A DNA stretch of 64,000 nt from Lachnospiraceae bacterium NE2001 (GTDB lineage Bacteria > Bacillota > Clostridia > Lachnospirales > Lachnospiraceae), in NCBI GenBank assembly GCA_900110635.1, contig FOEK01000003.1:1-64000 (forward strand), given 5' to 3'. The translations under genes and the position numbers were made by a program. The notes below the pieces were generated by a model, which saw nothing but the letters and a program-made list of their open reading frames with translations, was not told where the DNA came from and made no database searches. Shown here one piece after another: positions 5,743-63,056 of the stretch (its first letter is position 1; each line of letters opens with the position of its first letter).

Positions 5743-5771
5743 TTGACATAATTGTGTCAACCCATTATACT
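5743..5771 (+). promoter_or_regulatory. Sigma-A promoter of the autolysin gene
   Basis: TTGACA at 5743-5748 and TATACT at 5766-5771 with 17 bases between them form a near-perfect vegetative promoter. Transcription would start near 5778, which excludes the GTG codon at 5754 as the start of the autolysin and supports ATG 5817. Confidence 0.85.
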
Positions 5772-5816
5772 GTAATATGTGAAAATACAAAAATGTGCAA
5801 AAAGAGAGGACATTTT

Positions 5817-8800
5817 ATGATATTTACCGGAGAGAAGAAAAATAGATTAAAGAGAAGGATTATCGCCATGGTGCTGTGCATCTGTATGGTTATGGCACTT
5901 AGTGGAACTTCTGGTTTTGGACCATTTGCAGCCGGAGAGAATACTGGTGTTGCAACAGCTGGCGATGCTGATGAGACATCTAACGTTCAGAATACCCCTG
6001 CTCCAGCTGGTAATATTGCGGATGAAATCACTGATGAGAAGCCTGAGGTTTCTCAGACAGCGGATGATCAGGTTTCGGAGGAACAGTCGGTAGAAGAGAC
6101 AATAACTGAGGAACCGACATCAGAAGAATCCATGGCTGATAGTACTGTACAGTCTATGCTTCCACTTAACTGGGCAGTTGTGGAGAGCGGACGTTTTGAT
6201 ACTCCGGCAGAAAATAAATATATTGTACTTGATCTGGGTGATGGCAGCACTGTCTTTGAAGACGCTACCCTTACACTTATTAATGAATATAACGGTGAAG
6301 AGATAACTCTTGCCGTTGATACTATTCTGGATACAACCCTCCTCTTCTACGCCTCCTTCCCTGATGCTTCCTGCCGAGGAAAGTACAGGGTTGCGAGCGT
6401 GCAGTACACCGCTGGTGGAGTACTTTATGAGAAAAACCTTATGGACGATGATGTTGCTCCTAGGTTCGGAGTTGACTGTGATATCACAGAGGAGCCAGAC
6501 ATTTACCTCGGTGGCGAGGATTTTGACGAGGTTGTTCCAAACACGGACGAGAATGGAACGACTACTGTACCAAGCATTACAAACGAGAATACTGATGCTA
6601 CAGACGTAACCGATGTAGTTAACTATGACTCATCACTTCAAAGTGATCTTCTTGATCTTTCAGATGATTTTTCAAGTGCTAATGTTATAGGAATTGACGG
6701 TGAGAACAGCAATGTTGATCTTTCGGGCGTAGTTCTTTCTGGTGATGAGTCGGGTATTACAAAGGAAGTTAATAACGACGAATTGCTCTCTAGTTCTCTG
6801 AATCAGCTTGTTTTCTCAAAATCTCCAGAAAACATTATCATAGTTCTTGATCCAGGTCATGGCGGCACTGATGAGGGTGCAGTACGTACATGGAATGGCG
6901 TAAAATATTGCGAGCGCGATATGAATCAGACCATTGCAAATGCCTGCCGTGATGAGCTTGCTAAGTATAAAAATGTAACTGTTTATATGACAAGAAGCTC
7001 TACTACAGAATCACTTCACGGAAGCACAGGTGCCGATCTGCAGTGGAGATGCGACTATGCTCACGAGATGGGCGCTGACCTTTTTGTAAGTCTTCATTGT
7101 AACGCTTCAGGGGTTGATAACACAAAGACTGGTGCTGAGGTATATGTACCAAATGTTGGTTACAGTACTCAGGCACACAACGTGGGTAAGACTGTAGGTG
7201 CAAAAATCGGTGAGAAGCTCAAGGCCCTTGGTCTTGCGAATGGTACAACTTATGAGAGAAGCTCTGAGAATGGAACTACCTATGATGATGGTTCGATAGC
7301 TGACTACTATGCAGTTATCCGTCATTGCAAGGAGTATATGATTCCAGGAATGATCGTTGAGCACGGTTATGTTAGCAGCCAGTACGACTGCGAGACATTT
7401 TTCGGTACAAATGAGAAGCTTCAGGCTCTTGGAAAAGCTGATGCTCAGGCAATTGCTGAAAATATAGGTCTTATCGAACAGAACCGTGTCAACAATGAGA
7501 TGAAGATTACAGGATGGCGCAAGAGTGGCGACACCTATGTATACTATATAGATGGAAATGTACAGACTGGCTTCTTCGTAGTAGATGGTAAGAAATATTA
7601 CGGTCGCGAGAATGGCCAGGTTGTTAAAGGCTGGCAGCTGATCGATGGATATTATTACCTCTTTAATGAGAGTGGTGCTATGGTCATCAGCTCCTGGGTT
7701 CAGGATGGCAGCGGTAAATGGATGTGGCTGGATGGCGATGGACATATGGCTACGGGTATCACCAATGCCAAGGGTACATATTATCTGCTGGACAGCGAGG
7801 GACACATGCTTACGGGCTGGCAGACCTATGGTGATAAATGGTATTACATGAATGAGTCCGGTGTTATGTACCGCAGCTGCTGGGTAAAGGGCAGCAAGGG
7901 CTGGTACTATATGTGTGCCGATGGACATATGGCAACAAATGAGACAATCAGTGATGGTGGTTATTCATATTATTGCGGCAGTGATGGTGTTATGGCTACA
8001 GGCTGGATGTATGATGGTTCTCATTGGTATTACGCTGGAAGCTCTGGTGCTCTCTACGTGGGCTGCTGGGCAAAATATAAGGGCTACTGGTACTATTTCG
8101 AGGCAGATGGAAAGATGGCAACCGGTAAGGTTAATCTTAACGGAACGCTTTACTATCTTAACGGCGACGGTTCTATGGCAACCGGCTGGATATATGATGG
8201 AGCCAAGTGGTATTACGCAACAGATTCTGGTAACCTCTATCTAGGATGCTGGTTTAAATATAATAAGAAATGGTACTATTTCAACGGTGATGGCTCTATG
8301 GCCACTGGATTTATAGATATCAACAACCAGCGCTATTATCTGGATGCAAGTGGTGCACTTATAGATGGAAACTGGTTTGCAGTTGGCAAGGATTGGTACT
8401 ACGCAACCAGTTCGGGAGCACTTCTTGGAAGTAACTGGCTGGAAAGCAATGGAAAATGGTATTATTTAAATCCCGATTATAAGATGGCAACTGATTCAGT
8501 GATTATTGGCGATAAGAAATACTATTTTGACGCTAATGGTGCTATGACACGTTCAGAAGCATATGTTGCTCCAAAGGCAGATAGCAGTACAGACAGTACA
8601 ACAGATACAACACAGCTTTATGCAATAATGGGTGGTACAACTTATACCGCTACAGACCTTGCAAACAGATTTATCAAAGAAGGCAAGGCTTATCCTACTG
8701 CGGTAATGGCAGCAGGTGGTGCGGCAAATATAGAAGCATTCTGCAAGATCATCATTGAAGAAGCAAGTGCTGAGGGTGTTAAGGCAGAGGTGGTATTCGG

Positions 8801-9149
8801 CCAGATAATGCACGAGACTGGATACCTTCAGTTTGGTGGATCTGTTGCACCAGAACAGTACAACTTCTGTGGACTTGGTGCAGTAAATGCTACTGAGAAG
8901 GGCTATGCCTTCAAAGATGTACGAACAGGAATTCGTGCACAGGTTCAGCATCTCAAGGCTTATGCCTCCAAGGATGCACTGAAAAATGAATGTGTTGACC
9001 CACGTTTCAAATATGTAGAGCGTGGATGCGCACCATACGTTCAGTACCTGGGCATCAAAGAGAACCCTAGCGGTAAGGGCTGGGCAGCCAACGAAAAATA
9101 TGGTATCTACATAGTTAACATCATCAATTCCATTTCAACAAAAAAATAA
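5817..9149 (+). CDS. Secreted N-acetylmuramoyl-L-alanine amidase with wall-binding repeats and C-terminal glucosaminidase
   Basis: A modular autolysin of 1110 residues. ATG 5817 has AGAGAGGA six bases upstream and lies downstream of the promoter. The signal peptide (KRR followed by a hydrophobic stretch) ends near residue 35. Residues 40-330 are acidic and Thr/Ser/Glu-rich. An Amidase_3 domain at about 340-550 carries the zinc ligands in LDPGHGG, CERD, SLHCN and VEHGY and cuts the MurNAc-L-Ala bond. About 350 residues of choline-binding-type repeats follow (pattern GWxxxxGxWYYxxxxGxMATG, about 561-914). The C-terminus (about 948-1110) is a glucosaminidase domain with the catalytic Glu in GQIMHETGYLQFGG. 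Two lytic activities on one wall-anchored chain suggest a role in cell separation. It is monocistronic, ending at a palindromic repeat. Confidence 0.9.
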   Translation: MIFTGEKKNRLKRRIIAMVLCICMVMALSGTSGFGPFAAGENTGVATAGDADETSNVQNTPAPAGNIADEITDEKPEVSQTADDQVSEEQSVEETITEEPTSEESMADSTVQSMLPLNWAVVESGRFDTPAENKYIVLDLGDGSTVFEDATLTLINEYNGEEITLAVDTILDTTLLFYASFPDASCRGKYRVASVQYTAGGVLYEKNLMDDDVAPRFGVDCDITEEPDIYLGGEDFDEVVPNTDENGTTTVPSITNENTDATDVTDVVNYDSSLQSDLLDLSDDFSSANVIGIDGENSNVDLSGVVLSGDESGITKEVNNDELLSSSLNQLVFSKSPENIIIVLDPGHGGTDEGAVRTWNGVKYCERDMNQTIANACRDELAKYKNVTVYMTRSSTTESLHGSTGADLQWRCDYAHEMGADLFVSLHCNASGVDNTKTGAEVYVPNVGYSTQAHNVGKTVGAKIGEKLKALGLANGTTYERSSENGTTYDDGSIADYYAVIRHCKEYMIPGMIVEHGYVSSQYDCETFFGTNEKLQALGKADAQAIAENIGLIEQNRVNNEMKITGWRKSGDTYVYYIDGNVQTGFFVVDGKKYYGRENGQVVKGWQLIDGYYYLFNESGAMVISSWVQDGSGKWMWLDGDGHMATGITNAKGTYYLLDSEGHMLTGWQTYGDKWYYMNESGVMYRSCWVKGSKGWYYMCADGHMATNETISDGGYSYYCGSDGVMATGWMYDGSHWYYAGSSGALYVGCWAKYKGYWYYFEADGKMATGKVNLNGTLYYLNGDGSMATGWIYDGAKWYYATDSGNLYLGCWFKYNKKWYYFNGDGSMATGFIDINNQRYYLDASGALIDGNWFAVGKDWYYATSSGALLGSNWLESNGKWYYLNPDYKMATDSVIIGDKKYYFDANGAMTRSEAYVAPKADSSTDSTTDTTQLYAIMGGTTYTATDLANRFIKEGKAYPTAVMAAGGAANIEAFCKIIIEEASAEGVKAEVVFGQIMHETGYLQFGGSVAPEQYNFCGLGAVNATEKGYAFKDVRTGIRAQVQHLKAYASKDALKNECVDPRFKYVERGCAPYVQYLGIKENPSGKGWAANEKYGIYIVNIINSISTKK

Positions 9150-9583: not shown

Positions 9584-11698
9584 ATGGAAATGAAGAACAT
9601 TTACAGAGACAAAACGATCGATCTGATGAGTGAGGCGGATGTTGGAACTAATGTGCGTCTTGCTGGATGGGTTGAGAATATCCGTGATCACGGTGGTGTT
9701 TCTTTCATTGACCTGAGAGATATGTATGGCGTTATGCAGGTTGTAATGCGTGACACCTCCCTTCTTGATGGGATCACCAAGGAGCAGGCTATCTCGGTTG
9801 AGGGACTTGTGGAGCATCGTGATGAGGAAACCTACAATCCAAAGATTCCTACAGGAACTATAGAGCTTGAGGCTCATTCAGTAGATATCCTCGGAAGAGT
9901 ATATTCTCAAGTACCATTTGAAATTATGACTTCTAAGGAAGTAAGAGAGGATGTACGTCTTAAGTACAGATATCTTGACCTTAGAAATACAAAGGTAAAG
10001 GATAACATCCTTTTCCGTTCAAAGGTAATAAGACACATCAGACATAAGATGGAGGACATGGGATTCGTTGAGATCCAGACTCCTATTCTCTGTGCTTCTT
10101 CACCTGAGGGTGCGCGTGACTACATCGTTCCATCACGTAGATTCAAGGGTAAGTTCTATGCCCTTCCACAGGCACCACAGCAGTATAAGCAGCTGCTTAT
10201 GGTTTCAGGCTTTGATAAATACTTCCAGATAGCTCCTTGCTTCCGAGATGAGGATGCGAGAGCAGACAGATCTCCTGGAGAGTTCTATCAGCTGGATTTT
10301 GAGATGAGCTTTGCAACTCAGGAAGATGTATTCAGAGTTGGTGAGGAAGTTCTTACAGATGTATTCCAGAACTTTGCACCAGAGGGTTACACAGTAACTC
10401 AGGCACCATATCCGATCATCAGCTACAAAGAAGCAATGCTGAAGTACGGTTCTGATAAGCCAGATCTTCGTAATCCACTTATCATAATTGACCTTTCAGA
10501 GTTCTTCCAGAGATGTACATTCAAGCCATTCCATGGCCTTACAGTTAGAGCAATCAAGATTAACGAGAGGCTTACAAAAGGTCAGCATGAGAAGCTTCTT
10601 AAATATGCACAGGGAATTGGCATGGGCGGTCTTGGATACCTTGAGGTTCTCGATGATGGTTCTTACAAGGGTCCTATCGATAAGTTCATTCCAGAAGATA
10701 TGAAGGATGAACTAAGAGAAAAGGCTGAGCTTGCTGTAGGCGATACAATCTTCTTTATAGCAGATAAGGAGAACCAGGCTGCTCTCTATGCTGGACAGCT
10801 TAGAACTGAACTTGGTAACAGACTTGATCTTCTTGAGAAGAACGCATTTAGATTCTGCTACATAAATGATTTCCCAATGTACGAGCTTGATCCTGAAACA
10901 GAGAAGATCGGATTTACACACAATCCATTCTCTATGCCACAGGGTGGTCTCGATGCATTACTTAATAAAAATCCTTTGGATATCCTGGCTTACCAGTACG
11001 ATATCGTATGTAACGGTGTTGAGCTTTCATCAGGTGCTGTCAGAAACCATGACATGCAGATCATGGAGAAGGCCTTCGAAATCGCTGGTTACTCAAAGGA
11101 TGTTCTTGAGAAGAAGTTCGGAGCTCTTTATACAGCATTCCAGTATGGTGCGCCACCTCATGCAGGTATGGCACCTGGTGTAGACCGTATGATAATGCTC
11201 CTTAGAAATGAAGAAAACATCCGTGAGGTCATCGCATTCCCTATGAACGGAAATGGTCAGGACCTTATGTGCGGAGCTCCTGGCGATGTTACAGAAGAAC
11301 AGCTTCGTGATGTTCACTTAACTCCAGATGATATCGCTGAAGCCTATGGTATGAAGATAACCAAGAAGGCAGGGGAAGTTGCAGAAGAGGAAACTAAAGA
11401 GACTCCTGGTGCAGTACAGATAACTGATGAGGTCATTGAATACGTTGGTATTCTTGGCAAACTTGAACTTTCTGAGGAAGAGAAGGAGAAGTCAAAGAAG
11501 GACCTTACAGAGATGCTTGATTACGTTGGCAAGCTGAACGAGCTTGATACATCGAACGTAGAACCAATGAGTCACACATTTGCAATATCAAATGTTATGC
11601 GTGAGGACGTAGTTACAAATGGCGATGACAGAGCAAACATGCTGAAGAACGCACCACAGAGTAACGGCGACGCATATATTGTACCAGAGACTTTTTAA
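9584..11698 (+). CDS. aspS: Aspartyl-tRNA synthetase fused to GatC (AspRS-GatC)
   Basis: A 704-residue protein. Residues 1 to about 595 are a complete bacterial AspRS: OB-fold anticodon domain, class II core with the FRDEDARADRSPGEFYQLD motif 2 region, GAD insertion and GVDRMIMLLR motif 3. A Glu/Lys/Thr-rich linker (about 596-610) leads to a complete 95-residue GatC, starting VQITDEVIEYVGILGKLEL and including DTSNVEPMSH. There is no stop codon or frameshift between them, and gatA follows after 18 bases with no separate gatC. His36, in RDHGG, is at the position where non-discriminating AspRS carries His and E. coli AspRS carries Leu30, so it probably also charges tRNA-Asn with Asp. GatCAB then amidates Asp-tRNA-Asn. 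The fusion would tether synthetase to amidotransferase. Confidence 0.92.
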   Translation: MEMKNIYRDKTIDLMSEADVGTNVRLAGWVENIRDHGGVSFIDLRDMYGVMQVVMRDTSLLDGITKEQAISVEGLVEHRDEETYNPKIPTGTIELEAHSVDILGRVYSQVPFEIMTSKEVREDVRLKYRYLDLRNTKVKDNILFRSKVIRHIRHKMEDMGFVEIQTPILCASSPEGARDYIVPSRRFKGKFYALPQAPQQYKQLLMVSGFDKYFQIAPCFRDEDARADRSPGEFYQLDFEMSFATQEDVFRVGEEVLTDVFQNFAPEGYTVTQAPYPIISYKEAMLKYGSDKPDLRNPLIIIDLSEFFQRCTFKPFHGLTVRAIKINERLTKGQHEKLLKYAQGIGMGGLGYLEVLDDGSYKGPIDKFIPEDMKDELREKAELAVGDTIFFIADKENQAALYAGQLRTELGNRLDLLEKNAFRFCYINDFPMYELDPETEKIGFTHNPFSMPQGGLDALLNKNPLDILAYQYDIVCNGVELSSGAVRNHDMQIMEKAFEIAGYSKDVLEKKFGALYTAFQYGAPPHAGMAPGVDRMIMLLRNEENIREVIAFPMNGNGQDLMCGAPGDVTEEQLRDVHLTPDDIAEAYGMKITKKAGEVAEEETKETPGAVQITDEVIEYVGILGKLELSEEEKEKSKKDLTEMLDYVGKLNELDTSNVEPMSHTFAISNVMREDVVTNGDDRANMLKNAPQSNGDAYIVPETF

Positions 11699-21249: not shown

Positions 21250-21336
21250 TACGCTTATCGTTGCAAACATATAAATAACAAACAAGAAGGAAGAGGATAA
21301 AGAAAGTAACATTTGTACTCATTATGGGGGGAAGAA

Positions 21337-23820
21337 ATGTTTCCGTATTTAAAGTCAAAAAAGGATTTTTTAAAGGATTGTGAGAATGTCAGATATCACG
21401 TAGAAGGGGATGGGTCTGATCAAAACCCTTTTGTTTTTGTTAGGAATAATGAAGGTGAGGATGGTTATTATAGTCATACAAGAGGGTGTGAATATTTAGA
21501 CAAGTTGTGTAAAGGCGGATGCCATTATACAAGATGTCCCAGAATTCCTGATAGAGGGAATTACTCAGAATGTTGTCTTGACTGCGGGTGCATATCAAAT
21601 CTCGCTGTTTATCTTACAGAAAATGTTAACAGGGCTAATTGGGGAGAGACAAATCAAGCTAGCATAGGCTCGGTCAGCTTTTCTCAGATTCAGGCTTGGT
21701 GCCAATCAGTTGGAGTTTTTATTCATGATGTGGTCAAAAGAATAAAGAATGATAATCTCGTAATTGGCCTTGAATATTACAATGAGAATAATATCAATGA
21801 TAATAATTTCCATTGCCGTGCTGATGTTATGATTGCAGGTTATGATAACTTTGGTCGAAAGAAAATGGTAATCATTGAACTTAAGCAGAATGATAATAAT
21901 CATTTTGAAGAGGATGACGTAACCTCAGCATTGGAACAGGTGGTACTCTACTCAAACAGCTTTCGTGAAATGTTTGAGGACTTTGATTCGCTGGAACTGG
22001 ATGTCATCCCTTGTGTTTATTTTCATAACTATACAAATGGAGATAGCGTAAGCGAAATGCAAAATGATACGTTTATCTGTTATGGAGGGACAAATGGTGG
22101 AAGCTGTCTATCTGGTATCGAGACTTTAAGTGATTATCTTGACAACATACTTAATGGTGAGATGTCTCAGCCTGATGCTAAGGAAATAATAAAGATCATA
22201 AAGCAGGGGATTAAAGTATTATCAATTGATGACATGGCTTCAATTATGTATGGTAAGAATTTGCAGAATGAATCGGTAAGTTTTGAAGATTCAAAGATAT
22301 ATCTCAGGCCAGATCAGAAATATGTTTTAAACAAACTGATTGAAGGATTGAACGACGAACAAGAAGCCGGAGAGATAAATGTTATAAATGGTGGAACAGG
22401 AAGTGGAAAGACTCTTCTTGTTTCACTGCTTATTCGTTACTGTATAGAAAATGAAATAAAAGTTGCACTTGCATATCAGGGGTCAGCTCCCATAAATGCT
22501 ATTATAGGTGATGGCGTAAAGAAATTGATAAAGCTAGAGTTGGATGAACTGCTAGACTCTTTAGGTAGAACAAGAACATTAACAAGAAAATTTAAAATAT
22601 ATGCTGATTATCTATTAAAGAATTTGAATACAAAATTCGGTGGAAGTATATTTGATATTTCAGAAAATATAAAATATACAGATGAAAAATCATATTATAA
22701 AATTAATGCTGATCTGGCTAGATCATATAAAGAAAATCCAGAGACATATAGAAATGATCTAGCAGAGTATCAAGGTATATTCTACGATATGCTTCCTGAT
22801 ACATTAGTAAAATGGAATGAGTTTTTTTCGGTTGCTTACGTGGATAAAACTCTTGGTCTTTTATTTGATGATTCGTATGTTTATATCTTTGATGAGTTTC
22901 ATCGTTTCAAGGATGAAGTTATACAGGAAGATGAAGATGGCGTGAATCTATTATCAGACTGGATTCAAAATATAATAAGGTATTCTCAAAGTAGTATGTT
23001 TTTTGTCGATGAACTGCAGAGTATATCTGAAGATGATGTTGGTAGTTCATTTGTTGACAGACTATGCAAAGGTCTTATTCTGGGGGATTGCAGAAAAAAT
23101 AAGTATAATTTATGGTCGCAGTTTAGATGTAATAACTGCGAAGGTTATATCACTTGGGTGGAACATTTTCTCCAGATATCAACAGGCGTGACTAGCTTAA
23201 AAGATTTGGACTATGATGTATGCATTATGGATGAGAATTATGAAGGGTTTAGAGAACTGATAAAGGATGAATCGGTTGTTTTTTTATCTGATAATTTACC
23301 TCGGGCAGACTTCAAAGAATTGTTTGGATCTGAAAAGTGGTTTGTTTTTAATAGTCAGAATGGCTTTACTACTTCTCGTGATGAAAATGGCCTGATAAGA
23401 GTTGGAAGTCCGTTTCAGGTTCAGGGAGTTGAGTATGATAAGGTCTTTGTTGTGATAGATAGCCGTATTGATTATATTGACGGAAAGATAAGTTTTACGG
23501 AAGAATATAACAACTCGCTTTGGAATAAGAGTTTAAATAGGAATATATATAGCAAGGCAGTAAATCTTTTAGGGGTTGAAGCAGATAAGTGGGAAAACCT
23601 TGTTGAACGAGTGTATGAACAAAGAATGGTTGAGAATCCTGATTTTTCTAGAGAAGAAGCTAGATGTATTGTATATCAAACTCTTTTTAATGATTACGTA
23701 GATGAACAACTTGCTTTGACTAAAAACAGATACAGGGTTCTTTTAACACGTGGCCTAAAAAAATGCTATATATTTGCTGTAAATGAAAAACTCAGAAAAT
23801 ATTTGAAAACTTATTTGTAA
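21337..23820 (+). CDS. PD-(D/E)XK nuclease-helicase fusion, DUF2075/Schlafen-3-like
   Basis: An 827-residue protein from ATG 21337, preceded by GGGGGGAAG. Residues about 45-90 hold a cluster of eight or more cysteines (GCEYLDKLCKGGCHYTRCP ... CCLDCGC) that could bind zinc. Residues about 155-185 resemble a PD-(D/E)XK nuclease core: an Asp in CRADVMIAG and ELK in VIIELKQN. From about 345 an SF1-type helicase follows: Walker A GGTGSGKT near 350, Walker B IFDEFHRF near 518, and motif VI-like RYRVLLTRG near the C-terminus. This order resembles DUF2075 proteins, several of which occur in defence or mobile loci. Base composition is visibly more AT-rich than neighbouring genes, suggesting transfer. 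Function is unproven. Confidence 0.7.
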   Translation: MFPYLKSKKDFLKDCENVRYHVEGDGSDQNPFVFVRNNEGEDGYYSHTRGCEYLDKLCKGGCHYTRCPRIPDRGNYSECCLDCGCISNLAVYLTENVNRANWGETNQASIGSVSFSQIQAWCQSVGVFIHDVVKRIKNDNLVIGLEYYNENNINDNNFHCRADVMIAGYDNFGRKKMVIIELKQNDNNHFEEDDVTSALEQVVLYSNSFREMFEDFDSLELDVIPCVYFHNYTNGDSVSEMQNDTFICYGGTNGGSCLSGIETLSDYLDNILNGEMSQPDAKEIIKIIKQGIKVLSIDDMASIMYGKNLQNESVSFEDSKIYLRPDQKYVLNKLIEGLNDEQEAGEINVINGGTGSGKTLLVSLLIRYCIENEIKVALAYQGSAPINAIIGDGVKKLIKLELDELLDSLGRTRTLTRKFKIYADYLLKNLNTKFGGSIFDISENIKYTDEKSYYKINADLARSYKENPETYRNDLAEYQGIFYDMLPDTLVKWNEFFSVAYVDKTLGLLFDDSYVYIFDEFHRFKDEVIQEDEDGVNLLSDWIQNIIRYSQSSMFFVDELQSISEDDVGSSFVDRLCKGLILGDCRKNKYNLWSQFRCNNCEGYITWVEHFLQISTGVTSLKDLDYDVCIMDENYEGFRELIKDESVVFLSDNLPRADFKELFGSEKWFVFNSQNGFTTSRDENGLIRVGSPFQVQGVEYDKVFVVIDSRIDYIDGKISFTEEYNNSLWNKSLNRNIYSKAVNLLGVEADKWENLVERVYEQRMVENPDFSREEARCIVYQTLFNDYVDEQLALTKNRYRVLLTRGLKKCYIFAVNEKLRKYLKTYL

Positions 23821-23843
23821 CTATTTTGAAGAGCAATGCGTGA

Positions 23844-23872
23844 TTGTTTTTTGAGGGGCTCTATGTTATACT
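23844..23872 (+). promoter_or_regulatory. Candidate sigma-A promoter of the Pro/Gln-repeat membrane protein
   Basis: TTGTTT at 23844-23849 and TATACT at 23867-23872, 17 bases apart, just after the nuclease-helicase gene. Confidence 0.65.
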
Positions 23873-23969
23873 ATTATGCGGTGTGTTTTCAAACTGGTTT
23901 GTTGATTAATAACTAAGAAAAAGACACAGAATGGATAGTTTTGACTTAGATTTGAAAGGGGTTAACTCC

Positions 23970-25619
23970 ATGAGTGATATAATAGATAGCCTGAAAAATA
24001 TGGATACATCGACGCTGTTTATCCTTGGATTCGCAGCGGTTCTTTTGATATTTCTTTTAGTTCTGATCATCGTGACCATCAAGGTTCTCGCTTCAAGCGG
24101 CAAGTACGAGGAAGAAAAGAAGCCGGTTGCTCCGCTTCCAGATGACGATGATGACGACGACGAGGATGAAGAGGATGATGAAATGTCACGCCGCGTTCGT
24201 GAGGCTGTCGAATCCGTGGAAGAAACCAAGGCAAAGGTTGAGGCTGAGAGAATCGCCCGCGAGATGGAGAGTGCTTCCCAGGCAGAGGATGATGCAGCCA
24301 GAGCCAGTGCAGCGGCAAAGGTAGAAGAGATTGCAAATGCTGTTCAGGGACAGCAGGCAGCTGAGGCAAAGCCAGCTAAGAAGAATAGATTATCATCAAG
24401 ATTTGCAGATATTAAGGCAAATGAATCAGCACCAGCTGATGAGTCTGATTCAGAAGAAGGTGACATTGTTCCAGAGAACCTCGTTGGAAAAGAGGTTGAT
24501 TCCGAGGTCGATGGTAACACAGCTGAGCTTGATACGAAGAAGATCAGAGAGGCACTTCAGAATGAAAGAGCTTCTGTTCAGGAGCAGGAGGACAGCTTTA
24601 ATGAAATGGCTAAGATGAGAGCTGAGTCTCCTGAGTACAACGCTTCATTTGATAGCGCATTTGTAGATAGACCAGATAACGAAGAGAAGAAGGAGCCGGT
24701 TATTCCGAATCCTACACCAGAGTCAGTTATGGCAGGGGTTGCGCCTATGGCAGCACAGCCAATGCAGACACCAGTACAGCCGATGCAACAGCCAGTACAG
24801 CCGATGCAACAGCCAGTACAGCCGATGCAGCAGCCAGTACAGCCAATGCAGACACCGGTACAGCCACAGGTTGCTGGTCCAGATCCAAATATGATGGCTC
24901 CAAATCCAAACCTCATGATGGGTGGCCCGGCACAAATGGATGCTGGTATGCAGCCAAGCCCAGCGATGGGATATACAACTCCAACTGCTCCAGTACAGAT
25001 GGATGCAGGCACTGTAGCGAGTCCAGTACCTACAGCTCCGGTACCTCCAGTGGCAGGTCCGGCACCTACAGTAACACCAGTTGCTGCTCCTGAGGAAGAT
25101 TCTGCATTTGATAAGAAAGATAAAAAGAAGAAGAAAAAGAAAGAGGTTCGCCCTGCAACACCTATCGAGCAAGCTGGAGGTTCTTCAGTTGCAAGATATT
25201 ACTGGTACAATCAGCAGGATGTTGAAGGCCTTACACGTAAGGAAGACCTTTATTTCAAGAGCCATTACTTCAACAATGCAGATGAGATAATTCTTGATCT
25301 TATCACAGAGATGTATGATTGTGGTTTTGTTAGAACAGAGGAACTTCAGAGGATTGCCTACGGCATAACATTTAAGTCACTAGGTATGAAAGAAATCCTT
25401 CGTTCAGATGACAACCTTGGTTTCGATAAGGATAAAGCAACCAAGGAACCTACTGCTTCAGATAAGCAGGAGGCATACGAAAAATGGTGTGGCTATGTAA
25501 ACAGCTTCGTTGGAATCATTGTTATCAATGCGCCAGACGATGTTAAGAACTACATTCTTCAGAAGATGTACGAGTACGGCAACCGCGACATCGAAGATCT
25601 GATGTACAGCCCATACTAA
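23970..25619 (+). CDS. Membrane-anchored protein with acidic, coiled and Pro/Gln-repeat regions; unknown function
   Basis: I do not recognise this family. From ATG 23970 (GAAAGGGG site 8 bases upstream; ATG 23931 lacks one) the protein has 549 residues. A single membrane segment (about 12-38, FILGFAAVLLIFLLVLIIV) is followed by an Asp/Glu run (about 53-68), an Ala/Glu/Lys-rich probable coiled coil, then five tandem heptapeptides QPMQ(T/Q)PV and a wider Pro/Met/Gln linker. A Lys run (about 380-390) precedes a compact C-terminal domain of about 145 residues rich in aromatic residues (RYYWYNQQDVEGL, YFKSHYFNNADE). The layout suggests an inner-membrane tether presenting a cytoplasmic domain on a flexible stalk. 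It is monocistronic, with promoter and terminator. Confidence 0.75.
   Translation: MSDIIDSLKNMDTSTLFILGFAAVLLIFLLVLIIVTIKVLASSGKYEEEKKPVAPLPDDDDDDDEDEEDDEMSRRVREAVESVEETKAKVEAERIAREMESASQAEDDAARASAAAKVEEIANAVQGQQAAEAKPAKKNRLSSRFADIKANESAPADESDSEEGDIVPENLVGKEVDSEVDGNTAELDTKKIREALQNERASVQEQEDSFNEMAKMRAESPEYNASFDSAFVDRPDNEEKKEPVIPNPTPESVMAGVAPMAAQPMQTPVQPMQQPVQPMQQPVQPMQQPVQPMQTPVQPQVAGPDPNMMAPNPNLMMGGPAQMDAGMQPSPAMGYTTPTAPVQMDAGTVASPVPTAPVPPVAGPAPTVTPVAAPEEDSAFDKKDKKKKKKKEVRPATPIEQAGGSSVARYYWYNQQDVEGLTRKEDLYFKSHYFNNADEIILDLITEMYDCGFVRTEELQRIAYGITFKSLGMKEILRSDDNLGFDKDKATKEPTASDKQEAYEKWCGYVNSFVGIIVINAPDDVKNYILQKMYEYGNRDIEDLMYSPY
24756..24860 (+). repeat. Five tandem 21-bp repeats in the membrane protein gene
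   Basis: Units start at 24756, 24777, 24798, 24819 and 24840. Each encodes QPMQ(T/Q)PV. Units 2 and 3 are identical and the others differ at a few positions, so copy number may vary among strains by slippage. Confidence 0.9.
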
Positions 25620-35881: not shown

Positions 35882-37129
35882 ATGGAGAATAAGGAAAGAC
35901 AGGATTTCGCACCTCCTGCACCAATAGCTGGAGGAGAGGTGCCAGTATATGAAGGAACTATAGAGAAGCCAAATGTAGTAGTTGTGGGCAATTCTGGAGT
36001 GGGTAAGTCTACACTGATCAACTCACTGTTTCAGACCTATGTGGCTGAGACAAGTATTGGCGAGGCTACCACAAAGGAGCTTCGGGTATATGAGACAGAT
36101 GCCTTGAGCTTCAGGATTATCGACACCATTGGTTTTGAACCTGGGGTTCTGAATCAGAGCAAGGCTATAGCCGCTCTTCGCAAATGGTCAAAGGACAGCA
36201 TCAAGAACGAGGATCCAACCCATCAGATCAGTATGATATGGTACTGTATCGATGGTACTTCCCGTAAGATGTTCAAGAAGAATATCGACATGCTGGCCCG
36301 GGCAACCTCAGTGTGGAAGAGTGTTCCAATTATTGTGGTAATCACCAAGTCCTACTCCAAGCCAGAGCGCGAGGAGAATATCAGGATGGTGTATCACGCC
36401 TTCAAGAGTCACAGCAAGCTCAGCGAGAATCTGAAGGCTATCGTTCCAGTGGTTGCAGCTACCTATAAGATAGATGCAGATCTGAATATAAATGTTACGC
36501 CTGACGGCCTTGGTGAACTGCTTGCCGAAACTGTGAAGTATCTGCCTGAGGGTGTATCCGCCTCTCTGGTTGATAAGAACTATTTCTATCTCCAGCAGAA
36601 GCGTGGCATGGCTCACAGTGTTGTTGGAGCATCGGCGCTGGCTGGTCTTACAGTGGGACTGGTGCCAATTCCATTTCCAGATGGTACTATCCTCACACCT
36701 CTGGAGGTTGGTGAGATAAAGAGCCTTTCCAAAATCTACGGCGTGGAGTTTGACAAGAATACCGAACTGATTCAGACCATCATAAATGCAGGAACTGCAG
36801 GTATCGTGGCGAAGACTGCGCTCAACGCCATCAAGGCTATTCCAGGCCTGAATATTGCAGGAGATGTGTTAAATGGAATCGTTGCTGGAGTTATCGTAGC
36901 AGCACTGGGCGAGGGCAGCGTTTATATCTTCGAGCAGATCTATACTGGCCAGAAGTCCGTAGCGGATACCGAGTGGGTGAAGAACTTCCTGGATTCCAAG
37001 GTGGCGTCAGGCCTTACGAAGAATATCAACACTATCGTTAAGGAATATACCGAGCTTTTGTCCTCTGGCAAGAAGGTCACTGCCAAGGATGTTATGATTA
37101 TTATAATGAAAAACATGAAGATTAAATGA
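35882..37129 (+). CDS. P-loop GTPase with C-terminal membrane-associated (DUF697/YcjF-like) region
   Basis: A 415-residue protein. The G domain (about 25-215) has G1 GNSGVGKST, a Thr-rich switch I (TSIGEATTKE), G3 DTIGFEP, and a G4-position motif TKSY in place of the usual N/TKxD, which may weaken guanine specificity. Residues about 235-380 contain three weakly hydrophobic stretches (GASALAGLTVGLVPIP, NAGTAGIVAKTALNAI, GDVLNGIVAGVIVAALG), similar to the DUF697/YcjF-type tail of bacterial IRG- or Era-like GTPases that associate with membranes. Function is unknown. It directly precedes three tandem hairpins and the SbcD/SbcC-like pair. Confidence 0.75.
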   Translation: MENKERQDFAPPAPIAGGEVPVYEGTIEKPNVVVVGNSGVGKSTLINSLFQTYVAETSIGEATTKELRVYETDALSFRIIDTIGFEPGVLNQSKAIAALRKWSKDSIKNEDPTHQISMIWYCIDGTSRKMFKKNIDMLARATSVWKSVPIIVVITKSYSKPEREENIRMVYHAFKSHSKLSENLKAIVPVVAATYKIDADLNINVTPDGLGELLAETVKYLPEGVSASLVDKNYFYLQQKRGMAHSVVGASALAGLTVGLVPIPFPDGTILTPLEVGEIKSLSKIYGVEFDKNTELIQTIINAGTAGIVAKTALNAIKAIPGLNIAGDVLNGIVAGVIVAALGEGSVYIFEQIYTGQKSVADTEWVKNFLDSKVASGLTKNINTIVKEYTELLSSGKKVTAKDVMIIIMKNMKIK

Positions 37130-37395: not shown

Positions 37396-38460
37396 ATGAG
37401 ATTTATTCATATAGCGGATGTTCATCTCTATGCTACTCCGGATAAGGAGTTTGAGTGGGGAGAGAACAGACCTAAGGAAATTGAAGAAACCTTTGAGAAG
37501 GTTATCGATGCCTGTAACGAGAAGGATATCGACCTCCTGCTTATCGCTGGAAATCTGTTTGATCTATCTCCGACTGTTGAGGATCTGATATTCGTTGACG
37601 ACAAGCTGATGCGTCTTGAAAAGACAAGAACAGTTATCCTGTCTGGTTCAGACGACTATATAGTACCGGGCAGCGAGAGCGCGGCTTATAAGTTCAGATC
37701 TCGTACAGTTATGCTTCCGCCAGAGAAGACGACAAATGCTTATCTGCGCGGTATCAATACCTGCGTAACTGGTTACAGTTATGGTAAGCCTGAATATTCA
37801 GAACGCATTCTGGAGAGTATTGATCCAGGACATGAGGATGCAGTAAATATCCTGCTTGGACACGGTGGTGATAAGAACCATATGCCATTTAGAAAGGATA
37901 AGCTGGCTGCAAAGGGTTTCGACTATGTGGCAATGGGTTATATCAGAAGACCTGTTCACATCCTGAAGAACCGTATGGCCTATGCCGGTTCACCTGAACC
38001 TCTTGGACCAAAGGAAACTGGCCGTCACGGCTACGTTCTGGGTGAGGTCACAGACGAGGGTACAAAGATAAGCTGGTGTCCAATAGCTCGCAGAAACTAT
38101 ATGGATATCAGTATTACCATGAGTCCTGAGCTTTCTCCTGAGGAGATTACGAAGAACCTTGAGGAGAAACTGCTGAAGCTGGGAAATGAGAATATCTATC
38201 GTATCATTTTACGAGGCTTCTCAAAGGACAATATGAGTTTTGATCTGGACAGAATAAAGAGCAGATATAACATTTATGAGGTTCTCAATATGACTATCTC
38301 CGATGATGACGAGAAGATGCTGAGGGCCGAGAATGAGAAGAACATGATGGGCAGCTTTATCCGTGAGATTCAGGGTAGCTACACCATAGACGAACGTATC
38401 AGAAGCAAGGCCCTGAGATATGGGATGGAAGCGCTAATAATGGCAGGAGAAGATAGATAA
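37396..38460 (+). CDS. SbcD/YhaO-like metallophosphoesterase-fold protein with degenerate active site
   Basis: A 354-residue protein of the calcineurin-like phosphoesterase fold, paired with an SbcC-like ATPase as in SbcCD or B. subtilis YhaO-YhaN. The N-terminal ADVH keeps Asp8 and His10. The remaining metal-binding motifs are altered: the family GDLFD is AGNLFD (Asn53 replaces the bridging Asp), GNHD is GSDD (84-87), and the GHxH near the end of the domain is GYIR (181-184). His156 in LLGHGGD is kept. With four ligands lost, metal-dependent nuclease activity is unlikely. The protein may be a structural or regulatory relic. Its stop codon is adjacent to the start of the partner gene. Confidence 0.8.
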   Translation: MRFIHIADVHLYATPDKEFEWGENRPKEIEETFEKVIDACNEKDIDLLLIAGNLFDLSPTVEDLIFVDDKLMRLEKTRTVILSGSDDYIVPGSESAAYKFRSRTVMLPPEKTTNAYLRGINTCVTGYSYGKPEYSERILESIDPGHEDAVNILLGHGGDKNHMPFRKDKLAAKGFDYVAMGYIRRPVHILKNRMAYAGSPEPLGPKETGRHGYVLGEVTDEGTKISWCPIARRNYMDISITMSPELSPEEITKNLEEKLLKLGNENIYRIILRGFSKDNMSFDLDRIKSRYNIYEVLNMTISDDDEKMLRAENEKNMMGSFIREIQGSYTIDERIRSKALRYGMEALIMAGEDR

Positions 38461-40197
38461 ATGTATCTGACTAAGCTCTTAATTAGAGATTTTGGATTAT
38501 TTCATAATAAGAATATGGATCTCCAGAAGGGAATCAATATCATTTACGGCGCTGAGCAGAGCGGTAAGTCCACAGTCAGGGATTTCCTGGTGGGACTGAT
38601 GTATGGTATTCCTAGGAGAGAAGGAATTACAAAGGTTCGTTCCAATTACGAACTAAGAAAACCAAAGAATTCAAATGGTTATTCGGGCACAGCATATATT
38701 CAGGATGATGACAAGACCTTCCTTGTGGATCGTTCCTTCCTGGCTGGTGCAAAGAAGGCGTCAGTGCTGGATGTAGGCTCAGGTCGTGAGGTCAGACTTA
38801 CAAACGCTGACACAATATCCGGAACCCTTTGCGAAACCGATAAGAATACCTTCCTTGATACAAAATGTATCGCGGTGGATGAGGATGATGATGTGAAGCT
38901 TGATATGCAGGATTACCTGACTAATATCACCCTCACTGGTACTTCGAATATAGATAAAGTAAAGGCTATCAAGTATCTGGAAAATGAGAAGAAGTCTCAT
39001 ATTCCAAAGCCGCTTATCAGAAGACTTGACGAGCTGGATGAGAGAATAGCCGAGTATGATACAGTAGATGATGATATCGCTGCAGTTGAGGCGGAGATCA
39101 AGACTCTTAACGAAGAATTCGTAATGGAGGCTGAGCGCCGTAAGCGTGTTGCCCGCCGTATGGTGGAAAATGAAGACGGTACCGTTACCTATGAAAATGA
39201 TGCTGAAATTGACGAGAAGATTGATCGTATCACTGAGAGAGAACGAAATATCGGTGTCAGCAATAAGGCTATCGATAAAGAATTAGAGAGAGAAAAAGAG
39301 AAGCAGAAAGAGGAGAAGAAGGACATACCTTTCTACGACAGAATCCCGGTTATTCTGGGAACCGGACTTCTCGTTATACTGATCATAGCTGCAATAGTTT
39401 ATATACTTCCATTTGAGGATGTTATCAGAAAACTGTTTATTATATTTACCTGTCTTTTTGTACTGTTTACAATACTCGATGGTTTTAAAGCCAAAGGCTT
39501 TTTCGATAGCAGTGAGGTCTCGGAAACTCCCGATGAGGAGGAGTTTAAGAAGGTTCTCACCGAGCTAAAGGAAGAGGCTGAGGAACAGGAAGAGATAGAG
39601 TTCGATATGACATTTGCCAAGGAATATCAGGACAAGAAAGCAGTTCTGAAGGAAAAGGAAAATGCTCTTATCGAGAGACGTAACGAGAGAAACAAGCTCC
39701 GTCACGAGTTCGATATGGTCTTCAAGAAGAAGAGTGAGCTCGAGGATGAGATAAATGCCATAGATCTTGCAATCCAGAAGATTAATTCGCTGTCAGACCG
39801 TTACCGTGCTGACGCTTTCAAGAATCTTCTTGGAAATGTATCAAGGTATATTGGCAGCCTGACACAGGGCGAGTTTAGCGAGCTGACATTTGACGACAGA
39901 GGCGACATCATACTGAAGGCTGATTATGGCTTCGTTCCACTATATCGTCTCACAGACGCCGATGCCGGTAAGGTGTATCTGGCTGTTCGACTCAGTATTG
40001 CCAAATATCTGGCAAAGGAGAAGATGCCGCTGATCATCGACGGAACTCAGATGCTGGAAAATGCATCTGAAGTAAAGTCGCTGGTTGACTGCCTTATGGA
40101 TATGAAGGAGGAACAGATCATCATCCTCACTGACGACTGGGGAATGGATTCCATCTTTAAATCCAAGGGCGTAGCTACTAACCTTATTCAGTTATAA
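38461..40197 (+). CDS. SbcC/YhaN-like coiled-coil ATPase, degenerate ABC motifs
   Basis: A 578-residue SMC/Rad50-like protein, much shorter than SbcC (about 1000). Walker A is intact (GAEQSGKST near residue 30). Two coiled-coil blocks (about 180-285 and 355-445) flank a pair of hydrophobic segments (about 298-345) like those of B. subtilis YhaN. At the C-terminus the ABC signature is not recognisable (TDADAGKVYLAVRLS), Walker B reads LIIDGTQ with Gly instead of the catalytic acid, and the H-loop position reads TDD. ATP may be bound but hydrolysis looks impaired. ATG 38461 follows the SbcD-like stop codon directly, so the two form a translational unit, probably a membrane-linked complex. Confidence 0.8.
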   Translation: MYLTKLLIRDFGLFHNKNMDLQKGINIIYGAEQSGKSTVRDFLVGLMYGIPRREGITKVRSNYELRKPKNSNGYSGTAYIQDDDKTFLVDRSFLAGAKKASVLDVGSGREVRLTNADTISGTLCETDKNTFLDTKCIAVDEDDDVKLDMQDYLTNITLTGTSNIDKVKAIKYLENEKKSHIPKPLIRRLDELDERIAEYDTVDDDIAAVEAEIKTLNEEFVMEAERRKRVARRMVENEDGTVTYENDAEIDEKIDRITERERNIGVSNKAIDKELEREKEKQKEEKKDIPFYDRIPVILGTGLLVILIIAAIVYILPFEDVIRKLFIIFTCLFVLFTILDGFKAKGFFDSSEVSETPDEEEFKKVLTELKEEAEEQEEIEFDMTFAKEYQDKKAVLKEKENALIERRNERNKLRHEFDMVFKKKSELEDEINAIDLAIQKINSLSDRYRADAFKNLLGNVSRYIGSLTQGEFSELTFDDRGDIILKADYGFVPLYRLTDADAGKVYLAVRLSIAKYLAKEKMPLIIDGTQMLENASEVKSLVDCLMDMKEEQIIILTDDWGMDSIFKSKGVATNLIQL

Positions 40198-40249
40198 TAT
40201 GTGGTCATCAAAGGAAGTTTAAGATAATAAATATTTGGAGGAAATAGAT

Positions 40250-40990
40250 TTGTCACAGTTACTATCAGTAAAAGATTTACACGTCAGCGTGGCTGAAACT
40301 GAGATACTTCACGGTATCAACCTTGAAGTAGGTCCCGGTGAAACCCACGTTATCATGGGTCCAAATGGTGCAGGAAAGTCTACCCTGGGCTATGCGATCA
40401 TGGGTAACCCAAGCTACGAAGTTGGTAAAGGCAGTATTGTTTTCAAGGGTGAGGACATCACTGATGAAGAGACTGCAGCCAGAGCCAAGGCAGGAATATT
40501 CCTGTCATTCCAGAATCCGATCGAGGTTCCTGGCATTTCACTTTCCAACTTCATAAGAAATGCAGTAGACACAAAGACTGGTACAAGAGCCAGACTTTGG
40601 GACTTCCGCAAGAATCTTGAGAAGCAGATGGAGCTTCTTTCTATGGATAAGTCATACGCAGACAGAGATCTGAATGTTGGCTTCTCTGGTGGTGAGAAGA
40701 AGAAGGCTGAGATCCTTCAGATGCTTATGATGAAGCCTGATCTTGCTATTCTTGATGAGACCGACTCGGGTCTTGACGTAGATGCTGTTCGTACAGTATC
40801 AGACGGAGTGAAAGCATTTCACGAGAGCGGTGATGGTGCCCTCATTATCATAACCCACAGCACAAGAATCCTTGAGGCTCTCACTGTGGATTATACCCAT
40901 ATACTTGTAGATGGAAAGATCGTTGAAACAGGCGATGCATCTCTGGTTGACGAGATCAATGCCCACGGTTTCGAACGCTTTGTAAACTAA
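40250..40990 (+). CDS. sufC: Fe-S cluster assembly ATPase SufC
   Basis: The ABC-type ATPase of the SufBCD scaffold. The start is TTG 40250, eight bases after GGAGG (40237-40241); the TTG at 40235 overlaps that site and is rejected. The resulting 246 residues match SufC. Walker A is GPNGAGKST, signature GFSGGEKKKAEIL, Walker B LAILDETDSGLD and the H-loop ITHST. It heads sufC-sufB-sufD-(small ORF)-sufS-sufU. No promoter is evident in the 40 bases after the SbcC-like gene, so readthrough from that operon is possible. Confidence 0.97.
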   Translation: MSQLLSVKDLHVSVAETEILHGINLEVGPGETHVIMGPNGAGKSTLGYAIMGNPSYEVGKGSIVFKGEDITDEETAARAKAGIFLSFQNPIEVPGISLSNFIRNAVDTKTGTRARLWDFRKNLEKQMELLSMDKSYADRDLNVGFSGGEKKKAEILQMLMMKPDLAILDETDSGLDVDAVRTVSDGVKAFHESGDGALIIITHSTRILEALTVDYTHILVDGKIVETGDASLVDEINAHGFERFVN

Positions 40991-60169: not shown

Positions 60170-60200
60170 ATGTGCAATGGGGACAGTCCCCATTGCACAT
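60170..60200. repeat. REP-like perfect palindrome, copy 9
   Basis: ATGTGCAATGGGGAC, a central A, and GTCCCCATTGCACAT form a perfect 31-base palindrome, followed by a partial echo GTCTGTCCCTTTTTGCACAT in 60203-60222. It lies in the divergent promoter region of glycerate kinase and the surface hydrolase. Its arms match the GTGCAATGGGGAC found inside copy 2. Confidence 0.85.
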
Positions 60201-60283
60201 AGGTCTGTCCCTTTTTGCACATTCCCAACACATTATATCAAAGTTGAAGGGAGTAGAAAATACTTGAAAAATCGGCTATTTCA

Positions 60284-60313
60284 TTGTAAAATCATACTTT
60301 ACGATGGTATATT
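60284..60313 (+). promoter_or_regulatory. Candidate promoter of the surface metallo-hydrolase gene
   Basis: TTGTAA at 60284-60289 and TATATT at 60308-60313, 18 bases apart, giving a leader of about 30 bases before ATG 60351. Confidence 0.6.
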
Positions 60314-60350
60314 ATGGAAACCGCATATTTTAAAAAATGGAGAGATAACT

Positions 60351-63056
60351 ATGAGACGAACTTTTTCAGGAGTACTTGCAACAATGATGATCCTCAGCCT
60401 TCTTGGCCCTGTGGATAGCTATGCAAAGACTAATGAAGATAGTACAACCAAGGCAAATGATTACATACTTGCGACTGATACGGATTCTGACCAGTCTGTG
60501 AGCCGTACGCTAGATGAAAAGACTATGGTAAAGGCAGAGGATGGACAGGGTGAACCATTAGAGCCTACAACTGAAGTTGTAACTACATATACAGCAACTG
60601 CTGAAAAAAATGAAGATGGCAGCATAAAGAAGACTCAGGTAGAAGGATATAAAGATCCTGCGGAAGAATATACAAAGGAAAATGAGAGAGTTGCTGAGGG
60701 TACAAAGGATACTACATCAGACAGAATCCATTATCTGAATCTTGACGATGGTGAGAGCAATTATACCAGTGACGCTATCATAATTGAGAGCAACGGCCAC
60801 TTTGGTCTTATCGATGCTTCCAACCTGAACGGTGACACAGCTCAGGTTCCTAATACTGCGGTTGGTGCTTCAGCATCTGGAAAACTTGTTCTGGATTATC
60901 TTGAGGCTCTTGGCGTTGAGCATCTTGATTTCGTAATCGGAACTCACAGTCATTCCGATCATATGGGCGGAATCCCTGACATCGTAAAAGAGATGGAGAA
61001 TGTTTACGGAACTAAGACAACGACTCCAACCAGCACAGTTGATCAGAACAACAACACTCTTCATTACTATACCGATGGCAAAGAGGGTGATGTAGTAACT
61101 AATGAAGATGAATTGGCTGCCATAAATGAAATAGATGAGCAGGAACCAACAACAGGGGATCCTGTTACAGATACAGAGAATCCAGTGAAGCTTACTCTTG
61201 TTGATGAGAATACAACTTATATATACAAGAGCTATACTGTCAATACCGAAGAGGATGGCAAGGGCTGGAAGAACAGCGATTACTTCAAGGCTGCTGAGAA
61301 AGCTATGGAAGGTACAAACAAGCTTCTTGTTGATAAGAAAGACAAGACAGCTATGGATAAGATTGGTGCATCATTTTCTGATGGTGGTACCGCCGCTGAT
61401 ACAACTGATGATTATATCAGCTTCAAGTTCGGTGATTTCAATATATCACTGTACAACTTGATCTCCAGATCATCAACAGATGAAAATGCTAACTCTATAG
61501 TTACTTATGTTGAGAAGTCAGGCACAAAGACAGTGCTTCTTGCTGACCTGGATGTGTATAATTCTCTGGAGCAGAGTATATCCAAGGCAATTGTAGCTGA
61601 CCACGGTACACCTCAGGTTGTAAAGCTTGGACACCACGGATTTACTGCTTCCACAAGTAAGGAACTGATTGATACATTTAACGCAAAATATGCAATCGTT
61701 CAGACAGAGAATAAGGACCTCAGTTCCTACTCACCTTTCTACAATTATATGAAGAAGAAGGGTACGGTAATTTACAGAACTCTTGATCAGACAGGTTCAC
61801 AGTCCATAGTTCAGGATATGACCGGTGCGCTGGCATTTAAGAACGGTTCTATAAGTGAACTGGATGAGGGCGTTGAGGAGTATCAGTTCGCAAATGAACA
61901 CAAGATTTGTAAGAAATATTACAAGATTTATACAATAACCAAGACTACGAAAACCTTTGTAGGAGAAGTTGAAACTGAAGAACCTGTAATTGAGGAATAT
62001 GATGTAATTCGAAATTTTTATGAAAATGAAGTAGATGACGAGCTTGTCAGTGTTTCCAGATACACAGCTATCGAATATGGTGCGACTCCAACTGTCTGGA
62101 CCTGGGGCGCTAAGGAAGGCCGCTGGTACAAGTGGTGGAAGAACTGGAATAACTATGATTGGGTATTTGTAAATGCAGATGGTACAAATGCTGTCGGCTG
62201 GACCAAGATCAACGGTAAGCTTTACCTCTTTGATAAAGATGGTTTAATGCAGCACGGTTTCCAGAAGTATGAGGGTAGCACAGTATACCTGCTTCCTAAG
62301 GATAACGGTGATCAGCCTGAGGGTTCACCTGCTATAGGTTGGACACTTATTGATGACAAATGGTACTATTTCGATGCAGACGGCAAGGGTCGCAACGGCT
62401 GGTGCAGTTCAGGCGGCAATTGGTACTATATTGAGGACGGTCTGATGGTAACTGGCATCAAGGAGATTAAGGGCGTTGCCTACAACTTTGGTTCCGATGG
62501 AAAGCTCCAGACTGGCTTTGTGAAACACGGTGGAGATACATTTTATATTACTGGTAGTGGTCAGTACGCAACAGGCTGGTTCGAGGTTGGCTCAACCTGG
62601 TACTGTGCAGATGATGAAGGAAAACTCAAGAAGTCACAGTGGGTTGGCGGCTACTGGCTTGACGGCAACGGTGCCTGGTCTTATGAGGGAGTTGGTGCTT
62701 GGAAATGTAATTCCAAGGGCTGGTGGTATCAGGATTCCAAGGGCTGGTACCCTTCAAACTGCTGGCAGATGATAGACGGAAAGTGGTATTTCTTTAATGC
62801 AAGCGGATATATGGCTTGCAACGAGTGGCGCGGTGGCTGCTGGCTGAATGGTGACGGTTCCTGGACATATCCACACCTTGGTTCCTGGAATTCAAATAGT
62901 TCGGGCTGGTGGTTCAGTGATGAGTCAGGCTGGTATGCGCATAGCTCTTGGCAGAAGATAAATGGTACCTGGTACTACTTCAAGGCAGACGGCTATATGG
63001 CTACTAACACAACCATCGACGGCTATTACGTAGACGCATCCGGCGCTTGCAAATAG
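60351..63056 (+). CDS. Secreted metallo-beta-lactamase-fold hydrolase with C-terminal wall-binding repeats
   Basis: A 901-residue surface protein. ATG 60351 has GGAGAG upstream and begins a signal peptide (MRRTFSGVLATMMILSLLG, cleaved near YAK). An acidic linker leads to an MBL-fold domain (about 120-500): the metal motif THSHSDHMGG at 198-207, further ligands in DLDVYNS and LGHHGFTAS near 427. The C-terminal third (about 582-901) carries at least ten choline-binding-type aromatic repeats (GWxxxxGxWYYxxxxG). This order, MBL domain plus choline-binding repeats, resembles pneumococcal phosphorylcholine esterase Pce/CbpE, which also has an MBL fold, and also ComEC-type hydrolases. A role in trimming wall polymer decorations is inferred. 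Confidence 0.85.
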   Translation: MRRTFSGVLATMMILSLLGPVDSYAKTNEDSTTKANDYILATDTDSDQSVSRTLDEKTMVKAEDGQGEPLEPTTEVVTTYTATAEKNEDGSIKKTQVEGYKDPAEEYTKENERVAEGTKDTTSDRIHYLNLDDGESNYTSDAIIIESNGHFGLIDASNLNGDTAQVPNTAVGASASGKLVLDYLEALGVEHLDFVIGTHSHSDHMGGIPDIVKEMENVYGTKTTTPTSTVDQNNNTLHYYTDGKEGDVVTNEDELAAINEIDEQEPTTGDPVTDTENPVKLTLVDENTTYIYKSYTVNTEEDGKGWKNSDYFKAAEKAMEGTNKLLVDKKDKTAMDKIGASFSDGGTAADTTDDYISFKFGDFNISLYNLISRSSTDENANSIVTYVEKSGTKTVLLADLDVYNSLEQSISKAIVADHGTPQVVKLGHHGFTASTSKELIDTFNAKYAIVQTENKDLSSYSPFYNYMKKKGTVIYRTLDQTGSQSIVQDMTGALAFKNGSISELDEGVEEYQFANEHKICKKYYKIYTITKTTKTFVGEVETEEPVIEEYDVIRNFYENEVDDELVSVSRYTAIEYGATPTVWTWGAKEGRWYKWWKNWNNYDWVFVNADGTNAVGWTKINGKLYLFDKDGLMQHGFQKYEGSTVYLLPKDNGDQPEGSPAIGWTLIDDKWYYFDADGKGRNGWCSSGGNWYYIEDGLMVTGIKEIKGVAYNFGSDGKLQTGFVKHGGDTFYITGSGQYATGWFEVGSTWYCADDEGKLKKSQWVGGYWLDGNGAWSYEGVGAWKCNSKGWWYQDSKGWYPSNCWQMIDGKWYFFNASGYMACNEWRGGCWLNGDGSWTYPHLGSWNSNSSGWWFSDESGWYAHSSWQKINGTWYYFKADGYMATNTTIDGYYVDASGACK

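Follow-up and report, generated by a model that had tools for sequence, protein, structure and literature searches.

The closest described systems are the Mre11-Rad50 and SbcCD complexes, in which a metallophosphoesterase is paired with an ABC/SMC-type ATPase, and where D, H, D, N, H, H, H and H are the metal-binding and catalytic residues of the Mre11/SbcD nuclease. A further point of reference is the B. subtilis pair YhaO/YhaN, described as SbcCD-like and as carrying membrane segments. Among the matches listed from open-licence PMC papers, none dealt by title with the function of YhaO/YhaN, and none, by title or abstract start, with dead SbcCD-type pairs. The locus described here lies in a window of 64,000 nucleotides (the whole stretch of DNA analyzed, from Lachnospiraceae bacterium NE2001), which encodes on the forward strand an Mre11/SbcD-like protein of 354 aa (P0001; 37396..38460), immediately followed by a Rad50/SbcC-like protein of 578 aa with hydrophobic segments within its coiled coil (P0002; 38461..40197).

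Likeness to Mre11-Rad50/SbcCD was found in the gene pairing and in the predicted folds of both subunits: structure prediction gave P0001 an Mre11-type fold with capping domain and C-terminal Rad50-binding helices, and P0002 a Rad50-type head and coiled coil. Unlike those complexes, the window pair has neither the ABC signature nor the Walker B acid and is missing five of the eight nuclease residues, and its ATPase has a short coil with two hydrophobic segments. At the eight active-site columns the nuclease subunit reads DHNSDHYR, compared with the canonical DHDNHHHH. Motif I (D8-x-H10; 37417..37425, this and all following features on the forward strand) is present and is kept in the window's subclade, H10 being lost in others, and the motif IV histidine is also present (H156; 37861..37863). 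N53 (37552..37554) replaces the bridging aspartate, which is D in canonical rows, GSDD (37645..37656) replaces the GNHD of motif III, with both its Asn and its His gone (the latter presumably equivalent to SbcCD H84), and GYIR (37936..37947) replaces the GHxH of motif V. The ATPase has an intact Walker A (GAEQSGKST; 38548..38574), while its ABC signature and Walker B catalytic acid are absent: LTDADAGK (39949..39972) stands at the position of the canonical LSxGTxxQ signature, the Walker B reads LIIDGT without the catalytic acid (40030..40047), and TDD occupies the H-loop position (40129..40137). The two hydrophobic segments span residues 297-315 (39349..39405; Kyte-Doolittle 2.93) and 318-336 (39412..39468; Kyte-Doolittle 1.77). 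Two such segments were likewise found in 135 of the 148 ATPases scanned, with three in 6, one in 5 and none in 2. The hydropathy of these coil segments indicates that the window-type pair is probably membrane-anchored.

The original prediction had named these retained and lost residues in both subunits, together with the two membrane-type segments, and residue-by-residue comparison with the columns of canonical relatives, along with hydropathy for the segments, bore it out throughout. Misalignment, with canonical motifs placed elsewhere in the proteins, was ruled out by comparing the columns with those of canonical relatives and by the predicted fold. The score of P0001 against the SbcD family TIGR00619 of NCBIfam (41.8 bits) fell below the curated cut-off (77.65); this score does not separate dead from live proteins, because a canonical relative, L021, is also under the cut-off (62.8 bits). 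The window ATPase is similar to YhaN in carrying, on hydropathy, two membrane segments in its coiled coil. It also gave weak PADLOC matches to Lamassu LmuB and other SMC-like defence ATPases (E 1e-8, with E 1.5e-14 for the ATPase of a canonical relative), and the window nuclease had no PADLOC match. In contrast to Lamassu LmuB, scores were low and accompanied by several other ATPase families, and the window pair is chromosomal and retained almost genus-wide.

Canonical Lachnospiraceae members of its subfamily (among them L021/L148, L127 and L134, these three with 39-55% nuclease identity to the window protein) share with the window pair the two-gene unit and the two hydrophobic segments but, unlike it, hold all eight nuclease residues and intact ATPase motifs. 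In the family, 260 of 397 genomes had a match at E 1e-8 or better, a count that may include other SbcD-like proteins. Thirty-eight of 40 further loci taken from that match list carried all eight nuclease residues, and the ATPase was complete in 29/29 canonical rows of an earlier set. Canonical relatives are thus common, and therefore the same columns can be read as live or dead.

In the genomes read, the degenerate pair extends across the window genus, a group of gut and rumen bacteria in which it is kept under strong selection. The nuclease was detected at E 1e-8 or better in 56 of 61 genomes, and in two of the remaining five the ATPase lies at the edge of a contig, so that one or both genes occur in 58/61; neither was seen in G416, G444 and G454. 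The pair was read in 53 genomes, giving 51 rows once two with identical nucleases had been dropped, and not one of these distinct sequences had a canonical nuclease at the eight columns. In the loci read, the genes are adjacent and on a single strand, and the frames are stop-free across deep divergence (with the exception of one cut match, G449). Nei-Gojobori dN/dS medians in six degenerate sets ranged from 0.036 to 0.101 for the nuclease and from 0.061 to 0.145 for the ATPase; in two canonical sets, of 1 to 5 usable pairs (a single pair for one ATPase set), they were 0.041-0.080 and 0.045-0.065, respectively. These values are rough because dS exceeded 1 in most sets, some saturated pairs being left out; the least saturated set (dS about 0.5-0.6) gave 0.040 for the nuclease and 0.083 for the ATPase. 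This retention and adjacency, the intact frames, dN/dS far below 1 and a loss of the same kind in orthologues throughout the genus support the original prediction that the pair is a pseudo-enzyme complex maintained by selection and not in decay.

Within this conserved protein, the former active site has drifted. In the 51 genus rows (row L020 being cut before the first two nuclease columns), D8 and D87 are invariant and column 53 nearly so (N in 50, G in 1), column 10 holds histidine in 22 rows and one of Y, R or C in 28, and column 156 is H in 20. Columns 85 and 86 show ten different residues apiece, at the 97th and 93rd percentiles of within-genus variability, and the other former catalytic columns are intermediate (from the 54th percentile for column 182 to the 80th for column 156). 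On the ATPase side, the S-x-G-T signature was found in 0/51 rows, Walker A in 43/51 (missing in one deep subclade, L120-L125) and the Walker B acid pair in 11/51, and signature column 500 lies at the 93rd-97th percentile. Because the former motif III and signature columns are so variable, no replacement active site was seen in the genus by per-column variability. A retained non-enzymatic role predicts such drift of the old site within a conserved protein. We favour, with a probability of about 0.68, the reading that the pair forms a membrane-anchored complex of the Mre11-Rad50 type in which nuclease catalysis and the ATP-driven head cycle have both been lost, and that selection maintains the complex as such for a role other than catalysis. 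The coiled-coil hairpin would keep the pseudo-ATPase heads at the membrane, with the pseudo-nuclease seated on them; ATP, where Walker A remains, would be a static structural ligand and not a fuel, and the complex would act as a membrane scaffold or receptor for a DNA or protein client.

The alternative that survives best, although we consider it unlikely, is residual or altered catalysis, for instance a one-metal phosphoesterase with ATP binding as a switch. D8, H10 and H156 of the window protein could hold one metal ion, and D8 is invariant and N53 nearly so across the genus. ATP may still be bound, since the window protein and most genus rows retain Walker A, and binding or even slow hydrolysis may be possible where Walker A or the Walker B acid pair persists. 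However, conserved chemistry should fix residues across the genus, whereas histidine is found at columns 10 and 156 in fewer than half of the rows and columns 85, 86, 182 and 184 vary, which counts against new chemistry.

A second rival concerns the gene context. The sufC gene, the first of a SUF Fe-S operon (40235..40990, forward strand), starts 37 nt after the pair, and is found downstream, on the same strand and no more than about 2.3 kb away, at 23 of the 26 genus loci for which 2 kb or more of downstream sequence was available, deep branches included, often with a TatD-like gene in between. Recruitment of the pair into iron-sulphur assembly alongside the SUF system in this genus would explain such an arrangement, yet we regard it as improbable: sufC is absent within 6 kb at L088, L090 and L093, six flanks of about 0.8 kb (L086, L089, L091, L092, L094 and L096) hold neither sufC nor the TatD-like gene, and sufC was found at none of six loci from outside the genus that had 2 kb or more, though three of those pairs are degenerate (L131, L160 and L172). 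Synteny by itself is a lead and not evidence of function. Directly upstream of the pair, the window holds an MMR_HSR1 GTPase gene with a weak DUF697 match (35882-37129), which 5 of the 26 compared loci also had close to the pair, and a promoter scan returned 12 matches compared with 10.8 expected from shuffles. Elsewhere in the window were observed an aspartyl-tRNA synthetase-like protein with a C-terminal GatC domain (9584-11698; Pfam PF02686, residues 629-700), a Schlafen group 3 helicase-like gene in a low-GC stretch (21313-23820; 33% at 22001-24000), possibly mobile or defence-related, and two large choline-binding-repeat proteins (5754-9149 and 60177-63056), the first of which has amidase and glucosaminidase domains.

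Active relatives were also searched for in the genus. The window genome holds an intact second SbcD-like/Rad50-like pair (C30; L182:1786-5009), with a hydrophobic stretch in its coil and the nuclease motifs DIH, GDLFD, GNHD and GHVH. Relatives of this nuclease occur in 19 of 61 genomes, and 27 of 61 have an SbcD that scores above the NCBIfam cut-off; 20 have neither, all of them with at least one pseudo-pair gene, although several of these 20 are incomplete and some have weaker SbcD-like matches. Of the Mre11-type pairs found by these searches, the dead one occurs most consistently across the genus. Regulation of an active SbcCD-type paralogue by the pseudo-pair through a mixed complex, which the intact pair of the window genome would allow, is very hard to reconcile with the 20 genomes that keep pseudo-pair genes and showed neither candidate paralogue. 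Decay toward loss is scarcely credible and was rejected, since the three genomes where neither gene was seen and the subclade without Walker A stand against stop-free frames (apart from the cut match), dN/dS far below 1, adjacent genes and 58/61 retention.

Degeneration reaches beyond one genome: it is genus-wide, it occurs elsewhere in the family, and it extends to a headless fusion. In a second genus, the nuclease was found in 35 of 37 genomes, and all 35 were read, resulting in 11 canonical and 24 degenerate pairs; the degenerate residues were often unlike those of the window genus (DHDSSHYH, DHDANHHH and DNNDQHHH). At L176 the only nuclease change is N85D and the signature is lost, so this pair may be at an early stage and could still be active. 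In a first table, which leaves out L014, L015, L020, L166 and L179 (identical or cut), 75 of 76 degenerate nucleases had a partner ATPase without the signature. Perfect coupling of the two losses is broken by three other genera, in which a degenerate nuclease accompanies a canonical ATPase (L184, L237 and L251; the L184 ATPase frame has 697 codons with the P-loop present). The reverse, a canonical nuclease with a degenerate ATPase, did not occur among the 66 canonical nucleases whose ATPase could be read (the cut L166 and L246 being left out), S-x-G-T being kept in 62 and one residue off in L244, L249, L252 and L253. Because dead nucleases occur with canonical ATPases in three genera and the reverse is 0/66, we infer that the nuclease was lost before the ATPase. 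E. coli SbcCD H84Q is reported to be nuclease-deficient with its ATPase lowered by about 15% (PMC6265447), a result that matches a stage such as that of L184, L237 and L251, where the ATPase is live and the nuclease dead.

The number of losses depends partly on the tree used. The motif-masked nuclease tree (104 rows) gave five state changes, three of them forced by well-supported branches, and placed the degenerates of the second genus in four groups around an unresolved fork. In the concatenated motif-masked tree (39 rows), these formed one clade among the canonical members of their genus, and the window genus with G040 and G129 formed another, to which the canonical G070 was sister; a single clade of all degenerates was rejected (p-AU 1.8e-94). 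The ATPase-head tree (33 rows) brought the degenerates of both genera together, with two changes, or one change in 28% of bootstraps, a grouping that we suspect reflects long branches. The concatenated tree thus rejects a single origin of loss, and the nuclease tree speaks against it, while the ATPase-head tree does not reject it; L237 and L251 are outside the trees. From the concatenated tree, the losses of the second genus seem to be separate from those of the window genus.

The second genus also carries a paralogue in which a degenerate Mre11-like domain is fused to a coil with hydrophobic peaks (L181:3001-4785 and L255-L264). The fusion was found in 11 of 37 genomes as a protein of 594-604 aa, with Glu-Ala (10) or Glu-Lys (1) replacing Asn-His and the other six nuclease columns kept, so that it may still bind metal. 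Its coil shows two hydrophobic peaks in 10 cases and three in one. No ATPase family was matched by Pfam in the one fusion scanned (L181), and a regular expression for the P-loop pattern hit 1/11. The best match between fusion and ATPase coils (E 1.3e-4) is suggestive only of homology. The fusion suggests that a pseudo-nuclease with a membrane hairpin can persist without ATPase heads. The order of loss would be the nuclease residues first, the ABC signature second and then Walker A and the Walker B acid, followed in this one paralogue by the ATPase head as a whole.

A wider proposal, which we hold as doubtful, is that a membrane-anchored machine of the Mre11-Rad50 type was repeatedly converted in Lachnospiraceae into a membrane receptor or scaffold without catalysis, the headless form being the extreme, that the core function of the subfamily would not be that of a nuclease, and that the scaffold of the window genus would be tied to the SUF operon. 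Across the window genus, a two-subunit machine of the repair type seems dead in each of its partners, and the active relatives searched for are patchier than the dead pair. Since live, half-dead, dead and headless versions exist among the relatives within one family, nature offers a separation-of-function series that could be used to ask what an Mre11-Rad50-type complex does besides cutting DNA. Such roles of Mre11-Rad50, among them sensing and tethering, are a standing question in eukaryotes too.
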